64,000 nucleotides of DNA from Entophlyctis helioformis (lineage: Eukaryota > Chytridiomycota > Chytridiomycetes > Chytridiales > Chytriomycetaceae). The notes under the pieces are model-generated. The model was not told where the DNA came from and did not search any database. It saw nothing but the letters and a program-made list of their open reading frames with translations. The DNA lies in NCBI GenBank assembly GCA_025526915.1, contig JAHLKH010000103.1:1-64000 (forward strand). Reading direction: 5' to 3'. This document shows, piece after piece, positions 7,486 through 17,639 of this stretch (its first letter is position 1; each line of letters opens with the position of its first letter). The translations under genes were made by a program, and so were the position numbers.

Positions 7486-9763
7486 AATCGCGTCGTGAGT
7501 CGTGCGTCAGGGGAAACTTTCAAAATGACTCAAAGCCTGATCTCAGACTGTCATCAGATTGCTTCGCCCATTGGAACAGGCGTGAGTGTCACAATGCGGG
7601 CAATGTCTGCGGGTGGTGCTGGTGTCACGGCTGGCGCTGCGGTCGCTTCGCTGACAGAGTCGCATGGCTCGGCCGCACGAACCGTTTGATTCCAGCGTGC
7701 TGATCTGTGGGCATCACCGCTACCCTCTGCTCGACAGATCTCGAGTGCCAATGAGGAGGGGGTAATTGATTTCGTTCCCATAGAGCACCCTGTGCCGGCA
7801 CCTGATTGGCCGGCTGGTTTGCCTCGAATTTTGTTCAATTTGGCATCCAATTTCCAATCTTTTTGAATCCAATTTCATATTCTTGTCCGGAATTCCCAGT
7901 CACTCTGAGCAGCCTTCAGTCGATGCCTTCTCAAGTCGTAGTCGCTTTGACGCTTGCTTGTGGACTGCTGAGCCTGTCCAAGGGGCAGCAGTTGGCTGCG
8001 TGTTGGTAGTGTCACCAAGAACTGTCGTGCGACTGCCTGTTGCAGCTGTTGGCCTTCTGCGTCCAGTCGGCCCTCTTGTGTGTGCTGCTGGGGCTGCCTG
8101 CTGCAATGTCCGAACGACCGATGTCACAGCCGACACAGACGCACTGGCATCAGCTGCTGCTCTCTTCCGCTTGCTTGTCGCTCCACGGCGGCTGGCTGTT
8201 GGCGTGGCAGCTGCAGCAACGGTTGGCTGTCCATGCTCGTCCACAACGTCCTTGTCGTCGTCGAGATTGTCAAGGCACACAGTGTCAACAGAGTCGCAAC
8301 TGTTGACAGCCATCGCACAACAGGCAGACGAGCTCACCAACGAGGGCATGGATGGATCACTCGGCGTATCGTTTAGCTGCCGCGTATCGTCGAGCTGCTG
8401 TAAGGCATCGCGCTTGGCTTGGTCTGACTTTGAGAACTGTCGAGGCGATACACAGAGAATGCCTGCAGCAATTCTGCTCACTCATGTCAACCTCTGTCCT
8501 GGCTGCCTTTGTGTAAACAGCAAGGTCGCAGCAACAAGTGTCTTTGCAACAGCCAGCAGCGCAGATGACCAGCAAGTCGTTCATTCAAGGCACAATGCCG
8601 TCGCACCCCGTCATCCACAGCCAACAGCCACGCCCACCTGACTTGTCAGCATGCCCACGAATGCAATGACGAGCAGCATGCACAGTCTTGGTCAACAACA
8701 AAGGGCTGATCAACTGCAGGCTGCAAAGAACAAGTCGTCCCAGACCTGCTGGCGACTGAAGTCAACAGCATCCAAGGTCGGCAATGAAGACACTGAGCCC
8801 AAGGAGAAACTCGCCTTGCACCATCATCACAAGAAAGTGCGACACATTTGTGAGATCTGGGATGACTACTCGGTCAAAGATTGGAGGATTGTCATGGTGT
8901 TGGTTGGCAATCTCTGTTCCAAAGAGCCAGATAGCGATATGGCGCATCTCAGTACTGCTCAGAGCACAAAGGAGGGCTGGGCATCAGGTTGGAGGTATTC
9001 ACACAGACGAGATCTAGCAATTCCATGTGCACTTGGTGATTCCAACTGCGGCATGGACCCTATGAACAAGGCTGGATGGGCAACCAGTGATGAGGCTACC
9101 ATGCCAGCATCCAACCGCCGTTGAGCATCAAGCAAGTCTTTGGTTGCCCATTCAACCAAGGCATCCAGGTCTGCTGTGGCGCGGTTGTCTCTGCAGCACG
9201 CAAAAGAGTGCCGGCTGGATGCAAACAGGTGCCAGTTGAGACTGCCACAGGCAGGAGAGTCCATGGTGTGCCGCCCAGTGGCCATCAAGCCACCACCTCC
9301 AAGATGGGCTGCATCAATGCCATCTGTTCACTGATCAGAGTGACTGTGTATCCATGAATATTCAAGTTGAGTTTGGTGTCAACTGATCAGATATCAGGGC
9401 GAGCCAGCTGCGCATGCTCATCGACAAGAGCACACGCCTCGTGCCAGACTCACCGCCGAGGCCAGCTTGCCATCCACGACTGTGCTTGTGGAGGATGAGG
9501 CATGGTGATCTTTTGCAATCAACACTCCAGATCAACGCGTTCATGTGCCTGGGTCGCGTTTTGGTGACGCGCCACTGATCATGAATCAAACATTGCAAAT
9601 CTCCGACACACAGATGTGATCATCTGTGGCAGTCGCAACAACACGGCCGCTGTGTTTGTCATAAAGAGAGCGGTTGGCCCGTCTGTGGTTGCTCGACCAT
9701 CCACATACACTCTGTCGCTCCTTGCCCTCTTCAGCACACCCTTGGCCGTCCATAACGCAACCC

Positions 9764-9764
<1 letters not shown>
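7486..9764. other. Gene-poor interval with no recognisable gene
   Basis: About 2.3 kb between the membrane-protein pair and the CA repeat. Short open stretches occur on both strands (minus 7900-8481, minus 8762-8947, minus 8959-9288). None resembles a family I know, and they do not join by convincing splice sites. It may hold a decayed gene on the minus strand or the upstream regulatory region of the XPG-Fanzor gene. Confidence 0.4.
7900..8481 (-). CDS. Unrecognised open reading frame
   Basis: A 193-codon open frame with an ATG start. It is rich in Ala, Thr, Ser and Arg, with a short basic patch (TSKRKRAAAD) that could be nuclear-localising. No domain is recognised and no splice-linked neighbour found. 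Composition alone could produce such an ORF in this GC-rich DNA, so it is listed only as a candidate. Confidence 0.2.
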   Translation of the reverse strand: MSRIAAGILCVSPRQFSKSDQAKRDALQQLDDTRQLNDTPSDPSMPSLVSSSACCAMAVNSCDSVDTVCLDNLDDDKDVVDEHGQPTVAAAATPTASRRGATSKRKRAAADASASVSAVTSVVRTLQQAAPAAHTRGPTGRRRPTAATGSRTTVLGDTTNTQPTAAPWTGSAVHKQASKRLRLEKASTEGCSE

Positions 9765-9818
<54 letters not shown>

Positions 9819-9861
9819 CCACGCACACGCACACGCAAGCACACACACACACACACACACA
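9765..9861. repeat. (CA)n microsatellite
   Basis: A nearly pure CA run at about 9765-9817, followed by an interrupted CA/CGCA run to about 9861. It ends about 28 bp before the ATG of the XPG-Fanzor gene, so it lies in the 5' leader or core promoter of that gene. Confidence 0.9.
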
Positions 9862-9888
9862 ACACAAGCACACGCAAGCACGCACAAC

Positions 9889-11130
9889 ATGGGGGTCCCT
9901 GCGGTTGTTTCGTGCGCGGTGGAGAATGGCGGCGGCAGCGTACACAAGGACGTGCGCTGGTCCTTGGTGTCGAAGCTTGTGCTTGGCAGCGCACGACTGT
10001 CACAAGATCCAAGCGACACCAACACGGCCACACCCAGCAACTGCGGCGCCTTTCTTGTTGATGTGATGAGTGTGCTTTATCCACACTTCATCAGGAGAGG
10101 AGGGCCTGATCACCCGTTGTCAAAGGCCGAGTGGATACCGATCCTCAAGCCGGTACTCAGCTCGTTCACGGACAAGTTTGGCCCCGAGTACGCCTACATG
10201 TTCCACGTTGACGGCAGGCTCGGCGACTCTGGGATTAAGATTGTCCACAAGGGCCGTGCGATCAAGGTCCTGAATGCGGTGGGCACAGTTCTACGGTGTA
10301 TTCGCAGACGCCGCAAACGCAAGAGATACAAGCGCTTATCCAAGTATGTCCACTTTGTCCTGCCGCATCGAGGCGATTCTAACTCTCAGTCAATGATCCA
10401 GGAAAGAGAAGCGTGCGCTGCTGCTCTCGTTCACGCTCACGCACAATGACAAGAAGCTGATTTACGAGGCGATCGCGGAGATCTTCAGTTCTGAGCCGCG
10501 GCGTGCTGTATGCTGGTGCAAGCACGAAGCGGACGTTTGCATTGCCCGCCATGTAGCCTACCATGCAAGCAAGCCAAGGTATAGATCGCCATGGCAACTG
10601 TCTGTTTTGATTGACAGCTAACAGTCTTTGTCTTGCAGCAGCGACATTCCCATTGCCGTCATTTGTAACGACTCTGATCTCGTGGCACACTGTGCTGGAC
10701 GTTGTCCTGTCATCATGATGTCCACGCGGAACGCGGAGGCCAACAACCTGCGGTCTTTCAACCATTCAGGCATTGTATCTCTTGCGTCGGCCCTCGGAGT
10801 ATACGAATTCCCTGGCGCTTGCCAACTTGTGGTTGCGTTGAGCAAGAGTGACTATTTCGATTGCTACGGGCGTGGTGCGTGCAATGCCTGTCTTGATGCT
10901 CTGTATTGTCATCCAAGATGTGGTGTTGACTAACACGCATTGCTACTCACATTGTCTTGCAGGTCTGCGCACTGCCGTCAACACCGTCAACAGGTACGTC
11001 GAGGAGGCGGCGCACAAGAGGAATATCACGCCGGAGGAGTTCTGCGTCCTGCTCCACACCCCCAAGATTGCCAGCGACTTCAAGAAGGATGTCAGGGCCG
11101 CCTACTCTGACGAGTTGTTGGCAATCGGAG
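9889..11130 (+). other. XPG/FEN1-type nuclease domain of the fusion gene
   Basis: The order of the structure-specific 5' nuclease fold is visible: N-terminal MGVPAV; an N-region acid in FLVDVMSVLYP (Asp codon 10060); a second in FHVDGRL (10210); a basic helical arch (IRRRRKRKRYKRLSKKEKR); I-region HEADVCIARH (Glu 10526, Asp 10532); ICNDSDL (10670 and 10676); and ALSKSDYF (Asp 10850), followed by a helix-hairpin-helix-like GRGLRTAVNTVNRY. All acidic positions that bind the two metals in FEN1/XPG enzymes appear kept. Such enzymes cut flaps, bubbles or 5' branches in DNA. The family call is firm; the substrate is not known. Confidence 0.75.
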
Positions 11131-14100
11131 GCGAGGACCTCGTCAAGTCGTTCCTCAACGCCTTCTCCGTTTTCGTGTACCACGACGAGTCGGGAAACAT
11201 TGCCAGCCAGTTCAAAGCCCCAAGCAGCAACAACGGTCAATCTGGCGATGTGCAAGGGCAGAGGCAAGTCATTGCATGACTGGCCAAGCACGTGGCACTG
11301 TAGATGCATTTGCATGCATAGCACCATACTGACCATCCATTGTTACGTGGCAATGACAGCAGCCAGGCTGCCAACACGACCACCGCGGCTCAACCAAGGT
11401 ACGCACGCATGCGATCTCTTGAAGTCTCTCACATTGCTGACTCTGCGTTCCTGTCTTTGATGTCATTGTTGGATCGCGATGCAGATGCTCATCTGCTGGC
11501 TGCCTCCTTGTACACTCCAAGTGGCAAGAACGCAATCCTGACTCCGACATTGTGCACCTGACGCAGAAGGATATCGACGGGCACCTCGACAAGATTGTCA
11601 ACAACGGCGAAATGGCCACAACTTTTTACGAGGTCAAGCGATGTCCGATTGCATTCGACTGCATTGTCAAGCACGTGCCAGGTTACCTCGCTCGCAACCC
11701 CGATGGAGTCGCAGGCCGAGACATTCTAGCCAAGATCAGCAGGACAACAAGTGCGCAGCTGTTGGAGCTTGTCATGAGCAATCCCTTTTGCCGACAGTAC
11801 GCGCAGAGCTTGGTCGACTTGATCAGTTTGTTTGGGACACACATGTACGTTATGGCATGACTTGGATGCATGTGCATATCTTGCCTTGAAGTGTCTAACT
11901 CAATCCACTTTGCATTGGACAGGGCGCAGCTCAGAGGATGAAGGTACAGCTGGGCAAAATTGTGAATCCTTGCTGCGTATCCTTTCAGGATATTTCAACT
12001 CCACGTACGTTTGGCTTGCATTGGAATGACTCGATGCCATGTACTGACAACACCCTCTTCTCTGAATGTGCTATTCAAGAACCAAAAACGCAGCCAGGCA
12101 CGCAGAAAGGCAAGCAGAAAGGCAAGCAGAAAGGCAAGCAGAAAGGCAAGGTCATCAAGCAGGACGATCCCCAAAAATCCTTGGCCGAGATCCACAGAAA
12201 GGCCACCGAACGGCTGAACGACCTGAAATCTCGCACGGATGGCGAATCAGTGACACTTGTCGAGCAGCTGAACGAGGCCATCAAACTGCTAGAGTTGATC
12301 ATCAAGGAAGCCTCGGTGCGTCTTCATCTTGACTGTCTGTGTGTGCATGTACTGACTTTTCGCGATCACTCATTTCTCCAATTGGCAGGAGGCTCGGCCT
12401 CCAAAGCGGCGCAACCAGCGAAAGTGGCGCAAGCGACAACAGCCATCTGTTGACAATCAAGCGGAGCAAGCACAGCCCGTGGTCTTTTCTCTCAATCGAC
12501 ATTTAGACACCAAGACGACGGTTAGTTCTGATGTACCATTGGCGCTTGCATATGCATTGTGTGCACTCGGAATGCATTGCTCATGCTGCATCCAACCTCC
12601 ACAGCCACGACTTCAATTCACAAAGAAGCAGGAGGCCGCGCTCATGAAGAGAAGCACATTGCAAGCTGCAAAGGCCGCGACACTGAAGGCCATCAAGGCC
12701 AACAAGGGAAAGTCGAGCCGGTTTGCCGGCAGTAGTTTGCCTGGTGGCTCGAGACGGGGGTAAGTGATGTATGCTGTGCCATTTGCCTTGAGTACTCTTG
12801 CTGACATGCGTGTTTGGCAGATACGTGCGTCGCTCACGATGGGCACTACATCTGCTGATTCGAAAGCTGGGTCGCACTGTTACAGGGCCACTCATGTCCT
12901 CTCTGCGGCGATCGGCAGCAATGATCAACAAACGGCAGAGCAAGCAACCAATCAACCTGCTGTGGATGCGCCAGATCAGCCTGCCGTGGACGAGCCTGAT
13001 CATCATGGCGCGAGAGTGGTGCTTAAGGTACGATTTAGGATTGCCATTCTGCCTGCATGCATGGCTTTGCATGGACTGACTCAGAGGTTGGCGTGGTGTG
13101 CAGAAAATGTTGTCGGGCAATCCAGGAAGCGCCAAGGTCTATGGCATCGAAGCCAGGAAGATGCCAGAGATATGGACGCGGCGTTTGATCATCGAGGACA
13201 CATTCATAAAGGTGTACTCGTTCATCGTCGGTCTTCGGCACGCTGGATTCGTCACAATCGGCGCCGTCGTCGAAGAGATGCTCGATCTCGATGCGGATGC
13301 GCCACTCCCGCCCAAGTACCACGTCTACAAGTGGATCGATGGAAAGACGACGAGGTATTGTTTCTTGGACCTGGACTTCAATGGCATCAACGACCTCGGC
13401 GACCATGCCAGCATTGACGGCCTCGGCGGCGTGACCAAGGCGGAGCTCTTCTCGGGTCGATTCACCCTCGGAAAGGACGTCACCGCCCGCCTCATGTACG
13501 GTTCGAGTTTGTACAATCACGAAAGCGAGGAGCCTCGGTATGGGCATCCGGTGCAACTGGCGACGGGTACAAGACTCGAGCGCGTTATGTTTGAGAAGGT
13601 CAAGAAGCCCAAGAAGGTCACGAAGCCCAAGACAGCCGAGGAGTCAAAGGACGCAGAGCAGCATGAGGATGCCGAGGATGCCGAGGACGCCGAGGATGCC
13701 GAGCAGCACGAGGATGCCGACATTCACGAGCAGCCCGATCAGCCTCAGCAGCCCGATCAGCCTGCAGCAGCAGCACCAACAGTACCGACATCCAACCAGC
13801 TGTTCACGGCACTCATCAACAGCACCTCGGGTGGCGAGACAACTGTGGCCTGCATCTTTCGCCACCTGTCATTCATTTTCACCGGCAAGGAGATGGTCAA
13901 GCCGCAGCAAAACATGGAGACGATCAATGCATGGGTCGTCACTGTCATGCAGTTGATGATCCACCGTGCATGGACGCGCGGGATGGTGCAGGCCAGTGCG
14001 GACAAGATGTACGCGGACAAGAATGGTGCGCAGCAGGCCGACACAATCCAGACGGACATGCAGGAGGACGTCACGTATCAGGCAGCTCTACCATACCGCC

Positions 14101-17100
14101 TGGATGACACTCTCTGTGGGAGCGCAACAGATGACATCTTCAACAACCTCGCCAGAGAGGTGAGCACCATACTTGCGCGGCACTACATTGGAAGTCAATT
14201 CGACCTGGCGGTTGGTGCAGCCATCAAGCTTGCTCCCGGAATGTCTCGCGAGCAGGCGAAAGAGTTGGTTCAATCCCTGTTCGAGGAAGCCGATGCCGCC
14301 AAGGCTGCTGCTGCCAAGGCCACCAAGGCTGCTGCTGCCAAGGCACCGCGCCAAGACCATCGGCGGCCAAGAGAGGGAGACAAACGAGTGTGGCGTCAAG
14401 CACTGAGGACGCCGCGTCAAGCCCGACGCAACCCAAGAGAGCAAGGCGCAAGAGTGCAGCGCCAAACCCATCGTCGGCCGATCTTGACACCACCCCTCCT
14501 GCGCCAAGCAACAAGAGAGGCCAGTCAGGCTCATCGTCGGCCACTGACAAGAGCGGCGCGACCAAGAAGGCACGCGGCAAGAAGCCGGCCGCCAAGGACG
14601 CCGCAGGGAACAAGAGCGCTGTCGTGACCCCGCCAGCATTGCACAAGCTCGTGGCCATCATACGCAACATGTCGCTGTCGACTGTTGGACGCTTCAAGCA
14701 GCTGCGCGATCTCGCTGGAAGAGAGAGCATCAAGCTCTGTCCTCAAGCAGCAAGTCGTGATCCCTTTGTTCTGATCACCGAAACCATCCTCTTCTGGGCG
14801 GTTATGGGGCTGAAAAGGGATCGCACCAGCAAGTCACAAGATCCCGTCTTGCGAGCATTGAGACTGGAGCTTCTTGCTGCCATAAGTCAGTCACACTGCC
14901 TGTCTATGCCATCTTTTTATGATTTGATGCTAACAATCCACTCGTCTCAAAGAGCCTGGCTGGCTTCTCAAAAGCTTAACTGGAAAGACTCGGAGCTTGC
15001 ATTGCCCAATGACAAGATCCAGAAGGCATTCAGTTCAAGTGACGAGCTGTGCGTCATGGATCTTCTGCTTCCGGGTCTTGCCTCCGATACACGGCGCTAT
15101 CAAACGCCAGCACAGGCCAAGTTGCAGATTGACCCGGCCGACACCGCGGCAGAGGCCAGAGCAACTCCTGATGTGACACAAGAAGCCAAGGCTGACGATC
15201 TTCAACTGGACGACAAGCAGTCGGCGGACTTGATCAAGGCCGAGGTTGATGCTCTTCCTCAAGTGCTACCAACCAAGTCGGTCAGATTTGGCAGCATCAA
15301 GACCGATGGGAAGAGTGTCTTTCAAACTGTTCTCGAGTTTCGCACAAACCGTCCAAAGTCACCTCGCAGTATGTGCCATGCTTGGATGCTTTGGTGCACG
15401 CATTGATTCTGACCACTGCCTTGCTCTGCAGGTCCCAACGCGGCGACTTCAGACGAGCAGCCCAGTCACGTTGAGGATGCTGATGACTCTGATTCTGACG
15501 ATGACTTGGATGATGACTTGGATGACGATGACTTGGATGATGGCTTGGATGACGATGGCTTGGATGGCGAATGTGAGTTGCTGTACCAATCCAGACGAGC
15601 ACTTGTTGACCACACCAACTGACATGCCATCCACAGCCGCCAATCCAGCCAACCCGTCAGCCGCCAAGCCATACACGCCCAATCCTGTAAGCCACTTGCA
15701 TGCTAAACTCGCGCATTGGTGCACATGCATTGCACATTCCTCACTCATGCCATGGCATGACAGGTCAAGCGCAACTTTTACGCCTCGCAGCGACTGCCCG
15801 ATGTTGCTGATGCCAACAAGCTGCTCGCCGACAAGGACTTTGTTCGCGTTGTCAGCTTTGATTGGGGCGAGCGGTACCTGTATGGCGCGTCAAGTATGCT
15901 AGTCAATGTCAAGGAGGAGACATACACCATGGAGTCCAACTACGTGCTCTCCTCTGGCGTATTTCAAGCTGAGCGCATCTTTCAGGACTGGTATGCATGC
16001 AATGACTCTGCCATGCGCACTCTTGACCAGATCAACTCACAGTGCCTGCCTCCTGTGCCAGGCTCACAATCGATATGCCAAGGCTGCGGACGTCCACGAG
16101 GCCATTGCATTCAAGACAGCAAAGCATGCCGATCCAGCCATCTCAGCAGGCGAGAGAGCCTTTTGGGATCTGCGCTGCCATGCGTACTGCACGCCATTCC
16201 TGAATGCACGGGTACGTTTTCTCTGGTTGTGGATGCCCATTGACACGGCCGCCAAGCTGCTTGATCGCCTGCTGATTGCACTGAATGGCATGGCATGGCA
16301 TGGCATTCCACAGAAGGTCAAGGACAAGCGGTTTGCCATGCGCTGCAAGCGCATGTCTGATCGCGGACAGGCTCTTGAGGGCATCATGAAGCTGGCAGGA
16401 TCGACCACTGGAATGCGCGCATCCGATGCGTCTCAAGGCCTCCCTGTCGACCGAACAAAGCCGGAAAGGACACATTCCCGTTGTGTGGGCATTTGGCATT
16501 GACTTTACAGGCCAAGGTGGCCGGCACGCTGTGTTTGAGAAGTTTCTCATCAGGCATCTGCGGTCTCTGGATATGCCTATGTGCGTCTGATGCCACGCTG
16601 TCCATCCATCCATCCATCTGTGCACCAACTGACCACACATCACACACACACAGATCTACCGCTGCAATGAGAACCTGACCAGCCAGATGTGCCCACAGTG
16701 CAAGCAGCGGATCCCATACGAGAACCGCACCAACCTGCGACGCTACGAGTGCATACCATGCGAGACCGTCTACCACCGCGACGTGCTTGGAGCCACCAAC
16801 ATCGGAATGGTCGCACTGGAGCATCTGCTTTTTGGACAACGGCCGCTCTACTTGACGCACACGCCAGTCGATCCGCCTGTCGTCCAGCAGCCTCCAGCAC
16901 CAGATCAGCCTGTCAACCAGCAGCGTTCTAGACACGCCATCAAGCGACGTCTAGAACCAGATCCGACGGTCGACCAGCAGCGCCCAAGACGTGCCATCAA
17001 GCGGCGTCCAGCACCGGATCCGCCTGTCGTCCAGCAGCCTCCAGCACCGGATCCATCCGTCGACCAGCTGCGTCCAACACGCAGACAGCGTGCCAGCAAG

Positions 17101-17178
17101 TCAAGTGCCACTCCACGTGCTCTGACTTCCAGCACAACCACCAACACTTTGAATCGGGGCACCTCCCGATCGACCTAA
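9889..17178 (+). CDS. XPG/FEN1-like nuclease fused to a Fanzor (TnpB-like) RuvC nuclease; two frameshifts
   Basis: One continuous spliced frame can be drawn through about 20 exons: 9889-10343, 10402-10578, 10639-10874, 10963-11263, 11360-11398, 11485-11848, 11923-11943, 11989-12004, 12080-12315, 12389-12520, 12605-12759, 12821-13027, 13085-14885, 14955-15368, 15432-15572, 15637-15686, 15764-15990, 16043-16211, 16314-16584, 16654-17178 (about 1975 codons). Intron phases agree throughout, except for one-base shifts near 14.29-14.39 kb and 16.39-16.44 kb. The intron after 11263 is GC-AG (GCAAGT). Order: XPG-like nuclease, basic KGKQ repeats, an unrecognised globular part (13.1-13.6 kb), Glu/Asp and Ala/Lys linkers, an acidic DDL stretch, RuvC halves with a zinc ribbon, then Pro/Gln-rich repeats. 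It could instead be two adjacent genes, but I see no stop or new promoter between the parts. Whether it is still active is uncertain because of the shifts. Confidence 0.6.
15764..16830 (+). other. Fanzor/TnpB-type RuvC and zinc-ribbon domain of the fusion gene
   Basis: RuvC-I is VRVVSFDWGERYLYGA, catalytic Asp codon 15860. A helical stretch follows (FWDLRCHAYCTPFLNAR, then MRCKRMSDRGQALEGIM) like the bridge region of Fanzors. The RuvC-II-like part is VVWAFGIDFTGQGG near 16475-16520, the place where Fanzors have a Gly-rich G-x-x-F motif. The zinc ribbon is LTSQMCPQC (Cys 16690, 16699) and YECIPC (Cys 16750, 16759), and RuvC-III is YHRDVLGATNI (Asp 16780). This matches the TnpB/Fanzor order TS..C..C, C..C, RD..A.NI. 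Known family members are RNA-guided DNA nucleases carried by transposons; guide RNA and target here are unknown. Confidence 0.72.
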
Positions 17179-17639
17179 CGGGTCACTTATCACATCATTG
17201 TTCAAACAATGGTGCAAGGTGAGACCCTCATGCATGTGGATGTGCCTCGCCCGCCTGTCGTCGCATGCTCGTTGCTGACTCGAACCTTGCATCGTGTGAT
17301 ATGCGGGTTTGCATTCGACGCCTCTCGGGTCGAATCCAATTCCAAAACGCTTGGTAATTGTTTGAATGTCGGGCCATTTGCCGGCGGTTTGCCGGTATTC
17401 CCTCGCCCTTTTTCCCACCCCTCAGTCAGTGTCGCGGGTCGAGGTTTGAACCGCGGGTCGCATGTGTCACACGTGCCACACGTGCCACATTCGCACAAGT
17501 GCCATTGGTTGCGTGACAGCACGAGGTAGACTTGGACCCTTGTTCTCCCACCAGTCCAGCCAGCCCGCTGATTGGCTGGAACGAGAGACGTGCTGGCGAG
17601 GTGAATGCCTCGTGACGAGCGACCCGTGTTTGCCCGCGG
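17179..17639. other. Intergenic region upstream of the phosphoesterase gene
   Basis: About 460 bp with no open frame I can support. It carries several CACGTG-type E-box-like repeats near 17465-17485 (three CACACGTG-like units in tandem). If a guide RNA belonged to the Fanzor 3' end, this is where it would lie. I see no clear hairpin or terminal repeat. Confidence 0.35.

Follow-up and report, generated by a model that had tools for sequence, protein, structure and literature searches.

A proposed fusion of a predicted flap-nuclease-like domain with a Fanzor-type nuclease in a multicopy DNA transposon family of the chytrid Entophlyctis helioformis

Fanzors are the RNA-guided nucleases of eukaryotes, and what they do for the transposons that carry them is still a question. 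Variable or extended Fanzor N-termini are discussed, with no flap-nuclease fusion, in the accessible portions of three reports (PMC3627910, PMC10432273, PMC10711439), and the accessible portion of a fourth mentions "candidate Fanzor flap endonuclease homologs" for two virus contigs and describes no fusion (PMC11071296). A full-text literature search, whose reach left out most subscription papers, found no text treating Fanzor and XPG together, nor any TnpB fused to a PIN-domain nuclease. Here, we analyzed a stretch of 64,000 nucleotides (the window) on contig JAHLKH010000103.1 of the chytrid Entophlyctis helioformis, designated C103, and searched the whole genome (29.6 Mb, 482 contigs, numbered in the same manner) for copies of a gene within it. 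A first-pass annotation of the window had proposed that this gene joins an XPG/FEN1-like flap nuclease to a Fanzor in a single phase-consistent spliced frame. With moderate confidence, we propose that it comes from a DNA transposon present in dozens of copies in this chytrid, and that the one gene of the element, with 19 exons, would encode a flap-nuclease-like domain of predicted XPG/FEN1 type, a charged linker and a Fanzor-type nuclease. If so, it would be, within the searches made here, the first Fanzor from nature known to carry another nuclease.

In the window copy, the gene runs from an ATG at 9889 to a stop codon at 17176-17178 (gene 9889-17178), inside an element of 9.67 kb. The features of this copy are as follows (E, exon).

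7753..17423, plus strand: whole transposable element, 9.67 kb, with ends GAGGAGGGGG ... CCCCTC; similarity to C95, C108 and C16 stops at both edges
9889..10343, plus strand: E1, flap-nuclease-like domain, with D58 (10060-10062) and D108 (10210-10212)
10402..10578, plus strand: E2, HEAD motif, with E194 (10526-10528) and D196 (10532-10534)
10639..10874, plus strand: E3, NDSD motif with D222 (10670-10672) and D224 (10676-10678), and KSDYF motif with D282 (10850-10852)
10963..11263, plus strand: E4, where the nuclease-like part ends; the GC-AG intron 11264-11359 comes next
11360..11398, plus strand: E5, short exon
11485..11844, plus strand: E6, with a frame break (4 nucleotides shorter than in the intact copy); homologous stretch in gene model P0002
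11923..12004, plus strand: E7, linker
12080..12315, plus strand: E8, linker, Lys/Gln-rich
12389..12520, plus strand: E9, linker
12605..12759, plus strand: E10, linker; the donor at 12760 is retained as GTAAGT, GTGAGT or GTACGT
12821..13027, plus strand: E11, linker, with a frame break (a base near 12898, present in other copies, is missing from the window copy and from C169)
13104..14885, plus strand: E12, Fanzor N-terminal part, predicted WED/REC region; window frame break near 14.3 kb
14955..15368, plus strand: E13, Fanzor
15432-15572 and 15637-15686, plus strand: E14-E15, acidic linker
15764..15990, plus strand: E16, RuvC-I, with the Asp of DWG at 15860-15862
16062..16211, plus strand: E17, Fanzor RuvC part, 1 nucleotide shorter than in C1
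16314..16580, plus strand: E18, Fanzor, GIDFTGQGG block; internal frame change in the window copy
16654..17178, plus strand: E19, alternative RuvC-II Glu (16669-16671), C4 zinc ribbon (16690-16761), RuvC-III Asp (16780-16782) and proline-rich tail
17179..17423, plus strand: conserved right end, candidate guide (omega) RNA scaffold by conservation and folding

The exon-intron structure is shared by the family. When the window exon borders were projected on six other copies, donors were GT or GC at 108/108 sites and acceptors were AG at 100/108, and the splice sites are retained even in copies only ~69% identical. The C1 copy (contig C1, 130746-137648) can be spliced to an unbroken frame of 1,842 amino acids in 19 exons, with 18 introns (16 GT-AG and 2 GC-AG); residue numbers quoted for C1, such as D1568, follow a 1,843-codon version in which one acceptor lies three bases early. 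Net length changes relative to C1, where not zero, are triplets in 18 of 25 cells for exons E5-E11 and in 3 of 28 for introns 4-11, which is to be read as a tendency and not as a P value since the cells share ancestry. The GC-AG intron at 11264-11359 has its GC donor in 17/17 other copies and an AG acceptor at the same position in 14 of them. In the window copy, E6, E11, E12 and E17 differ from C1 by non-multiples of three and the frame of E18 changes internally; an open chain can be forced but runs through out-of-frame stretches. Breaks elsewhere lie in E4 of C95, in E6 and E12 of C366, in E6, E10, E11 and E12 of C16, in E3, E4 and E17 of C108 and in E4 and E8 of C3, in a tally that excludes E13 and E19 and skips two exon cells with insertions >100 nucleotides. 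The fused, phase-consistent frame of the first-pass annotation thus holds at the level of the family, with C1 open over 19 exons, and fails for the window copy itself, where at least four exons are shifted.

The two halves also travel together in the genome. The counts of locus pairs given here rest on the matches listed. The Fanzor N-terminal part lies downstream, on the same strand and within 6 kb (≤6 kb), at 42 of the 62 close nuclease loci. Conversely, with two diverged queries added, the nuclease part lies 1,865-4,055 bases upstream on the same strand at 65/98 loci of the Fanzor N-terminal part, and downstream or on the opposite strand within 6 kb at 0/98; it is also found upstream, on the same strand and within 9 kb, at 50/100 RuvC loci and otherwise placed at none. 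Several of the 33 unpaired Fanzor N-terminal loci are near contig ends, and 75/140 nuclease loci are unpaired, the Fanzor query being possibly too distant for them. This linkage in order, strand and spacing is beyond chance. The existence of distant Fanzor groups devoid of the nuclease part was considered and rejected, as the diverged queries found the nuclease part upstream of many. With conserved splice sites, the C1 frame and these paired loci, a single spliced gene likely encodes both the flap-nuclease-like domain and the Fanzor, as the annotation had suggested; this is predicted from genomic sequence.

The N-terminal part carries the motif series LVDVMS, FHVDG, HEAD, NDSD and KSDYF. Exactly seven acids are strictly invariant in 8 family sequences (D58, D108, E194, D196, D222, D224 and D282; 7 rows cover E194 and D196), and the flap-nuclease acids noted in the first-pass annotation are present in the window at codons 10060, 10210, 10526, 10532, 10670, 10676 and 10850. 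Their residue gaps (50, 86, 2, 26, 2, 58) resemble those of human FEN1 (52, 72, 2, 19, 2, 52), and the E-x-D and D-x-D spacing is retained in FEN1/XPG order. An acid pattern drawn up after seeing the sequence occurred in 11/300,000 shuffles of the window sequence. XPG_I_2 was the best Pfam family for 5/5 public gene models tested, below threshold (E 0.0047-0.038; best score of 16.9 bits against a cut-off of 24.2); the 5'-3' exonuclease family PF02739 was listed for 4/5 models and the PIN-like YacP family for one. Hand-spliced domains matched XPG_I_2 in 4/7 cases (E 0.0089, 0.039, 0.12 and 0.15), with the E-A-D and D-x-D stretches at most 4 profile positions apart from each other, and reversed controls in 0/4; a first Pfam scan had matched 2/7 members (best E 0.013). 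One hand-spliced domain also matched Pox_G5 (E 0.022), which we take to be a FEN1-like family. In the profile-profile comparison of gene models by hhalign (P 0.037), E-A-D falls in register with E-A-E, as do D-x-D, DY and the following Gly-rich stretch, and in this weak match GNAAAVKFIN is aligned to GPLRAVQLMK, where a helix-3-turn-helix after the last acid might lie. The ratio of nonsynonymous to synonymous substitution rates (dN/dS) in the domain is 0.20-0.36, with large dS in most pairs. Relatives of the nuclease part in the protein database number 7 at E≤1 among 7,995 scored candidates, all of them hypothetical E. helioformis proteins, and no relatives were found on viral contigs. From the acids and the sub-threshold family matches, we predict that the N-terminal domain is, very probably, an XPG/FEN1-type flap nuclease.

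The C-terminal half is of TnpB/Fanzor type. Pfam Cas12f1-like_TNB (PF07282) matches the C terminus with E 2.7e-10 (scores of 40.7 and 38.6 bits; cut-off, 26.3), and the RuvC-I Asp (15860), the zinc ribbon (16690-16761) and the RuvC-III Asp (16780) named in the first-pass annotation are all in place. The accessible part of PMC10711439 gives as a Fanzor feature a RuvC-II glutamate that precedes the zinc ribbon by six residues; C1 has this glutamate, reading E1757-NLTSQM-CPQC, then 16 residues, CIPC, 6 residues and D1794. Likewise, the motif D-X(125,275)-[TS][TS]-X-X-C4 zinc finger-X(5,50)-RD, taken from the accessible part of PMC3627910, is found in C1 as D1568, TS 1760-1761, CPQC..CIPC and RD 1793-1794. 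Some observations weigh against the proposed reading: a RuvC-I DPG is near-exclusive in Fanzors according to the accessible part of PMC10711439, and the window, C1 and C5 have DWG; the AlphaFold model of E12 is poor, with a predicted local distance difference test score (pLDDT) of 41.0; and dN/dS of the RuvC exons spans 0.38-0.99, with dS mostly small. For E12, dN/dS is 0.29-0.40. No relative of the Fanzor part reached E 0.001 in a set of 7,994 scored candidates, and the PDB has none by sequence. For the right end of 245 nucleotides, identity is 85-95%, across the whole segment or a portion of it, in 17 of the 18 other copies found and 82% in the remaining one, and the segment folds more stably than shuffled sequences (z -3.0; 0/200 shuffles as stable). 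This segment (17179..17423) is likely the site of a guide (omega) RNA scaffold, and we treat it as a candidate; its conservation and folding would also fit a transposase-binding end, which is possible.

The transposon family is large, and the copy in the window has decayed. DNA similarity between the window and other copies starts at ~7753-7777 and stops at 17423, and the termini form inverted ends, GAGGGG...CCCCTC, in most copies seen (CCCCTT at the right terminus of C264). Both flanks could be seen for nine copies. Two of these, C108 (AGCTGTAAC) and C264 (GAGTTCAAC), have a perfect target duplication of 9 bp; the duplications are imperfect at C13 (7/9 bases) and C95 (7 bases in common), displaced or odd at C169 and C112, and not clear at the window copy, C16 and C130. 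The element thus combines terminal inverted repeats with a target duplication of fixed length, perfect in 2/9 copies, as defines a cut-and-paste DNA transposon. Each end has at least 40 matches within the genome, and matches to exons (not loci) number 180 for the nuclease part, 211 for the Fanzor N-terminal part and 378 for the RuvC part. Between C1 and C3, dS is 1.63 for the nuclease domain, 0.48 for E12, 0.22 for the linker and 0.13 for RuvC, a striking mosaic that fits a recombining family with modular exchange.

The element might instead make two proteins, a standalone flap-nuclease-like protein, terminated by the in-frame stop that lies in the GC-AG intron or at some later point of the linker, and a Fanzor started independently downstream, with the linkage reflecting one transposon and not one polypeptide. 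Several results weigh on that side and against a fusion. The 7 public gene models found, themselves predictions, include no fusion, and P0001 (349 amino acids), which supports E1-E2-E3-E4 splicing, stops at the GC-AG intron, where its terminal KKRQVLA matches the window intron read-through QRQVIA; GC donors are generally weak, so intron retention is plausible. The frame is intact in 1/7 copies compared in full (C1), the region at 11.9-13.0 kb has no clear codon periodicity, dN/dS of the linker is 0.64, and the fused protein has no relative at E 0.001 among 7,996 scored database candidates. However, the end point of P0001 could be explained, we infer, by a gene finder working without GC donors, and P0002, from a diverged copy, extends through the equivalents of E5-E6. 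The open C1 frame from E1 to the E19 stop, the triplet bias in E5-E11 and the GC donor in all 17 other copies likewise argue for continuity. In addition, the window TAA at 12760 overlaps a donor that C3 (GTGAGT) and C1 (GTACGT) retain without the stop, and C1, C3 and C366 lack the candidate ATG at 12839; a Fanzor gene starting at this ATG after TAA 12760 was rejected because neither is conserved in C1 and C3. On balance, we consider two separate proteins unlikely.

The identity and role of the N-terminal domain have to be weighed in the same way. A different acid-bearing fold, another PIN-like or binding domain resembling XPG/FEN1 by motif, seems quite improbable to us, even if profile and structure tests lend a flap nuclease weak or no support. 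No Pfam flap-nuclease model (XPG_N, XPG_I or XPG_I_2) passes its cut-off for the nuclease part, and Pfam, NCBIfam, PHROGs and PDB-sequence searches with this part gave nothing above threshold, the PDB holding no sequence relative of either half; XPG profile searches of the genome itself match other loci and not this gene. Unrelated families score equally in some scans (Alpha_kinase, E 0.0084; SAM_6, E 0.013), and in six public models six of the acids are invariant, D108 being Asn in P0006. The hhalign comparisons with FEN1-type profiles are weak (P 0.28, 0.088 and 0.037), and for the second of these 23/300 column shuffles score no lower, with the HEAD block offset by two residues. Structure prediction, as proposed in the first-pass annotation, gave a poor AlphaFold model of the E1-E3 read-through (pLDDT 40.6), and fold searches with AlphaFold models gave no match at E 0.001. 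Against another fold stand the FEN1 acids, which are the only strictly invariant ones and have FEN1-like spacings, the ranking of XPG_I_2 and PF02739 and the in-register hhalign pairing described above. The XPG/FEN1 identity claimed by the annotation is thus supported in part, by the acids and the sub-threshold family matches; of the hidden Markov model searches it had suggested, that for the Fanzor end exceeded the cut-off and those for the flap-nuclease families fell below. One may also ask whether the nuclease domain mainly serves transposition, opening or resolving transposon ends, with the Fanzor as a passenger that restores lost copies. In favor of this, the element generates 9-bp target duplications and no transposase was recognized in the frames searched, which also weighs against our main proposal: Pfam returned nothing above threshold for eight left-arm frames, and the MULE transposase PF10551 had 0 matches across the genome. 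However, a transposase may act in trans or be encoded by the reverse-strand open reading frame (ORF) 7903-8481, and FEN1 and XPG enzymes are hydrolases that, to our knowledge, are not known for strand transfer. We thus hold a main role in transposition to be quite unlikely, and the insertion step is probably carried out by a transposase that escaped these searches.

Returning to a fused protein with a flap-nuclease-like domain, a most likely sequence of events can be pictured. RNA from the conserved right end would direct the Fanzor part to a donor site left empty or to its allelic counterpart, where RuvC would cut. At the R-loop and the ends of the break, the tethered flap nuclease could then trim 5' flaps or the displaced strand. 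Such a trimmed break would be hard to rejoin, and homologous repair might copy the element back, leading to its retention and spread. We infer from this a dual function, guided cutting and flap trimming. Tentatively, the family may represent a natural genome cutter with two nucleases, a Fanzor guided by RNA into which a flap endonuclease is built, evolved in chytrids to propagate itself by gene-drive-like spread through both cutting of the target and processing of the ends. This raises the question of whether end processing at a guided break decides how the element is copied, a question made testable by the purifying selection on the nuclease domain and the Fanzor N-terminal part together with multiplication in one genome.

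Other observations concern the gene and its copies. Retention of the GC-AG intron 11264-11359 would yield a nuclease-only protein, and regulated splicing is possible; in several introns of 10344-16653, conservation looks higher than at third codon positions in the adjoining exons. The public model P0007 joins the nuclease start to a sequence that resembles, by eye, the polyprotein of a retrotransposon; a nested insertion or an error of the model is the probable cause. On C23, C52 and C82, 7-10 kb separate the nuclease and Fanzor parts, probably through later insertions inside the element. Two diverged nuclease-part genes (C40:38997-39848, L076, and C24:167607-168455, L074), carrying YEADVCIA/YEADCCIA, have no Fanzor N-terminal part nearby among the matches listed; it is possible that they are a standalone version or that the partner Fanzor is too diverged for the query. 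Compared with C1 and C3 (L069, L068), the window segment 15237-17423, comprising RuvC exons and right end, is ~85-93% identical, and the nuclease and REC parts are only ~69% identical. A long CA-repeat tract, which differs among copies, lies at 9767-9880, immediately 5' of the start codon. On the minus strand, ORF 7903-8481 encodes 193 amino acids, rich in Ser/Thr/Ala and with a KRKR stretch; similar frames of 180-230 amino acids are open in C95, C108 and C16, and Pfam yields no family above threshold for this ORF. It could be a second gene of the element.

The closest described systems are Fanzor1 (SpuFz1 of the chytrid Spizellomyces punctatus; accessible part of PMC10432273) and the Fanzor elements of Bao and Jurka (2013; accessible part of PMC3627910), with which the element shares the C-terminal RuvC, the C4 zinc ribbon and the alternative RuvC-II glutamate, as well as the setting of a terminal-inverted-repeat DNA transposon in a chytrid with a conserved right end. 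The prototype SPu-1-1p, as described in the accessible part of PMC3627910, has 633 amino acids in one ORF and putative TA target duplications, whereas the element here has ~1,842 amino acids in 19 exons, 9-bp duplications, DWG for DPG and ~800 extra N-terminal residues with a nuclease-like domain. With FEN1/XPG/EXO1 and the Asteroid-type proteins (Pfam XPG_I_2), the predicted flap nuclease has in common the seven acids, their order and similar spacing, the D-x-D, and a DY followed by a Gly-rich turn, with EAD where FEN1-type enzymes have EAE; unlike FEN1/XPG/EXO1, it falls below Pfam thresholds, is fused to a predicted RNA-guided nuclease and is multiplied by a transposon. Engineered CRISPR-nuclease fusions and end-processing partners pair a programmable cutter with a second nuclease to alter the repair outcome. 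Those are man-made, whereas the element protein would be natural; it would be a lead for editing tools and, should the two-nuclease reading be true, an already existing template for editors whose cuts resist being rejoined without error.

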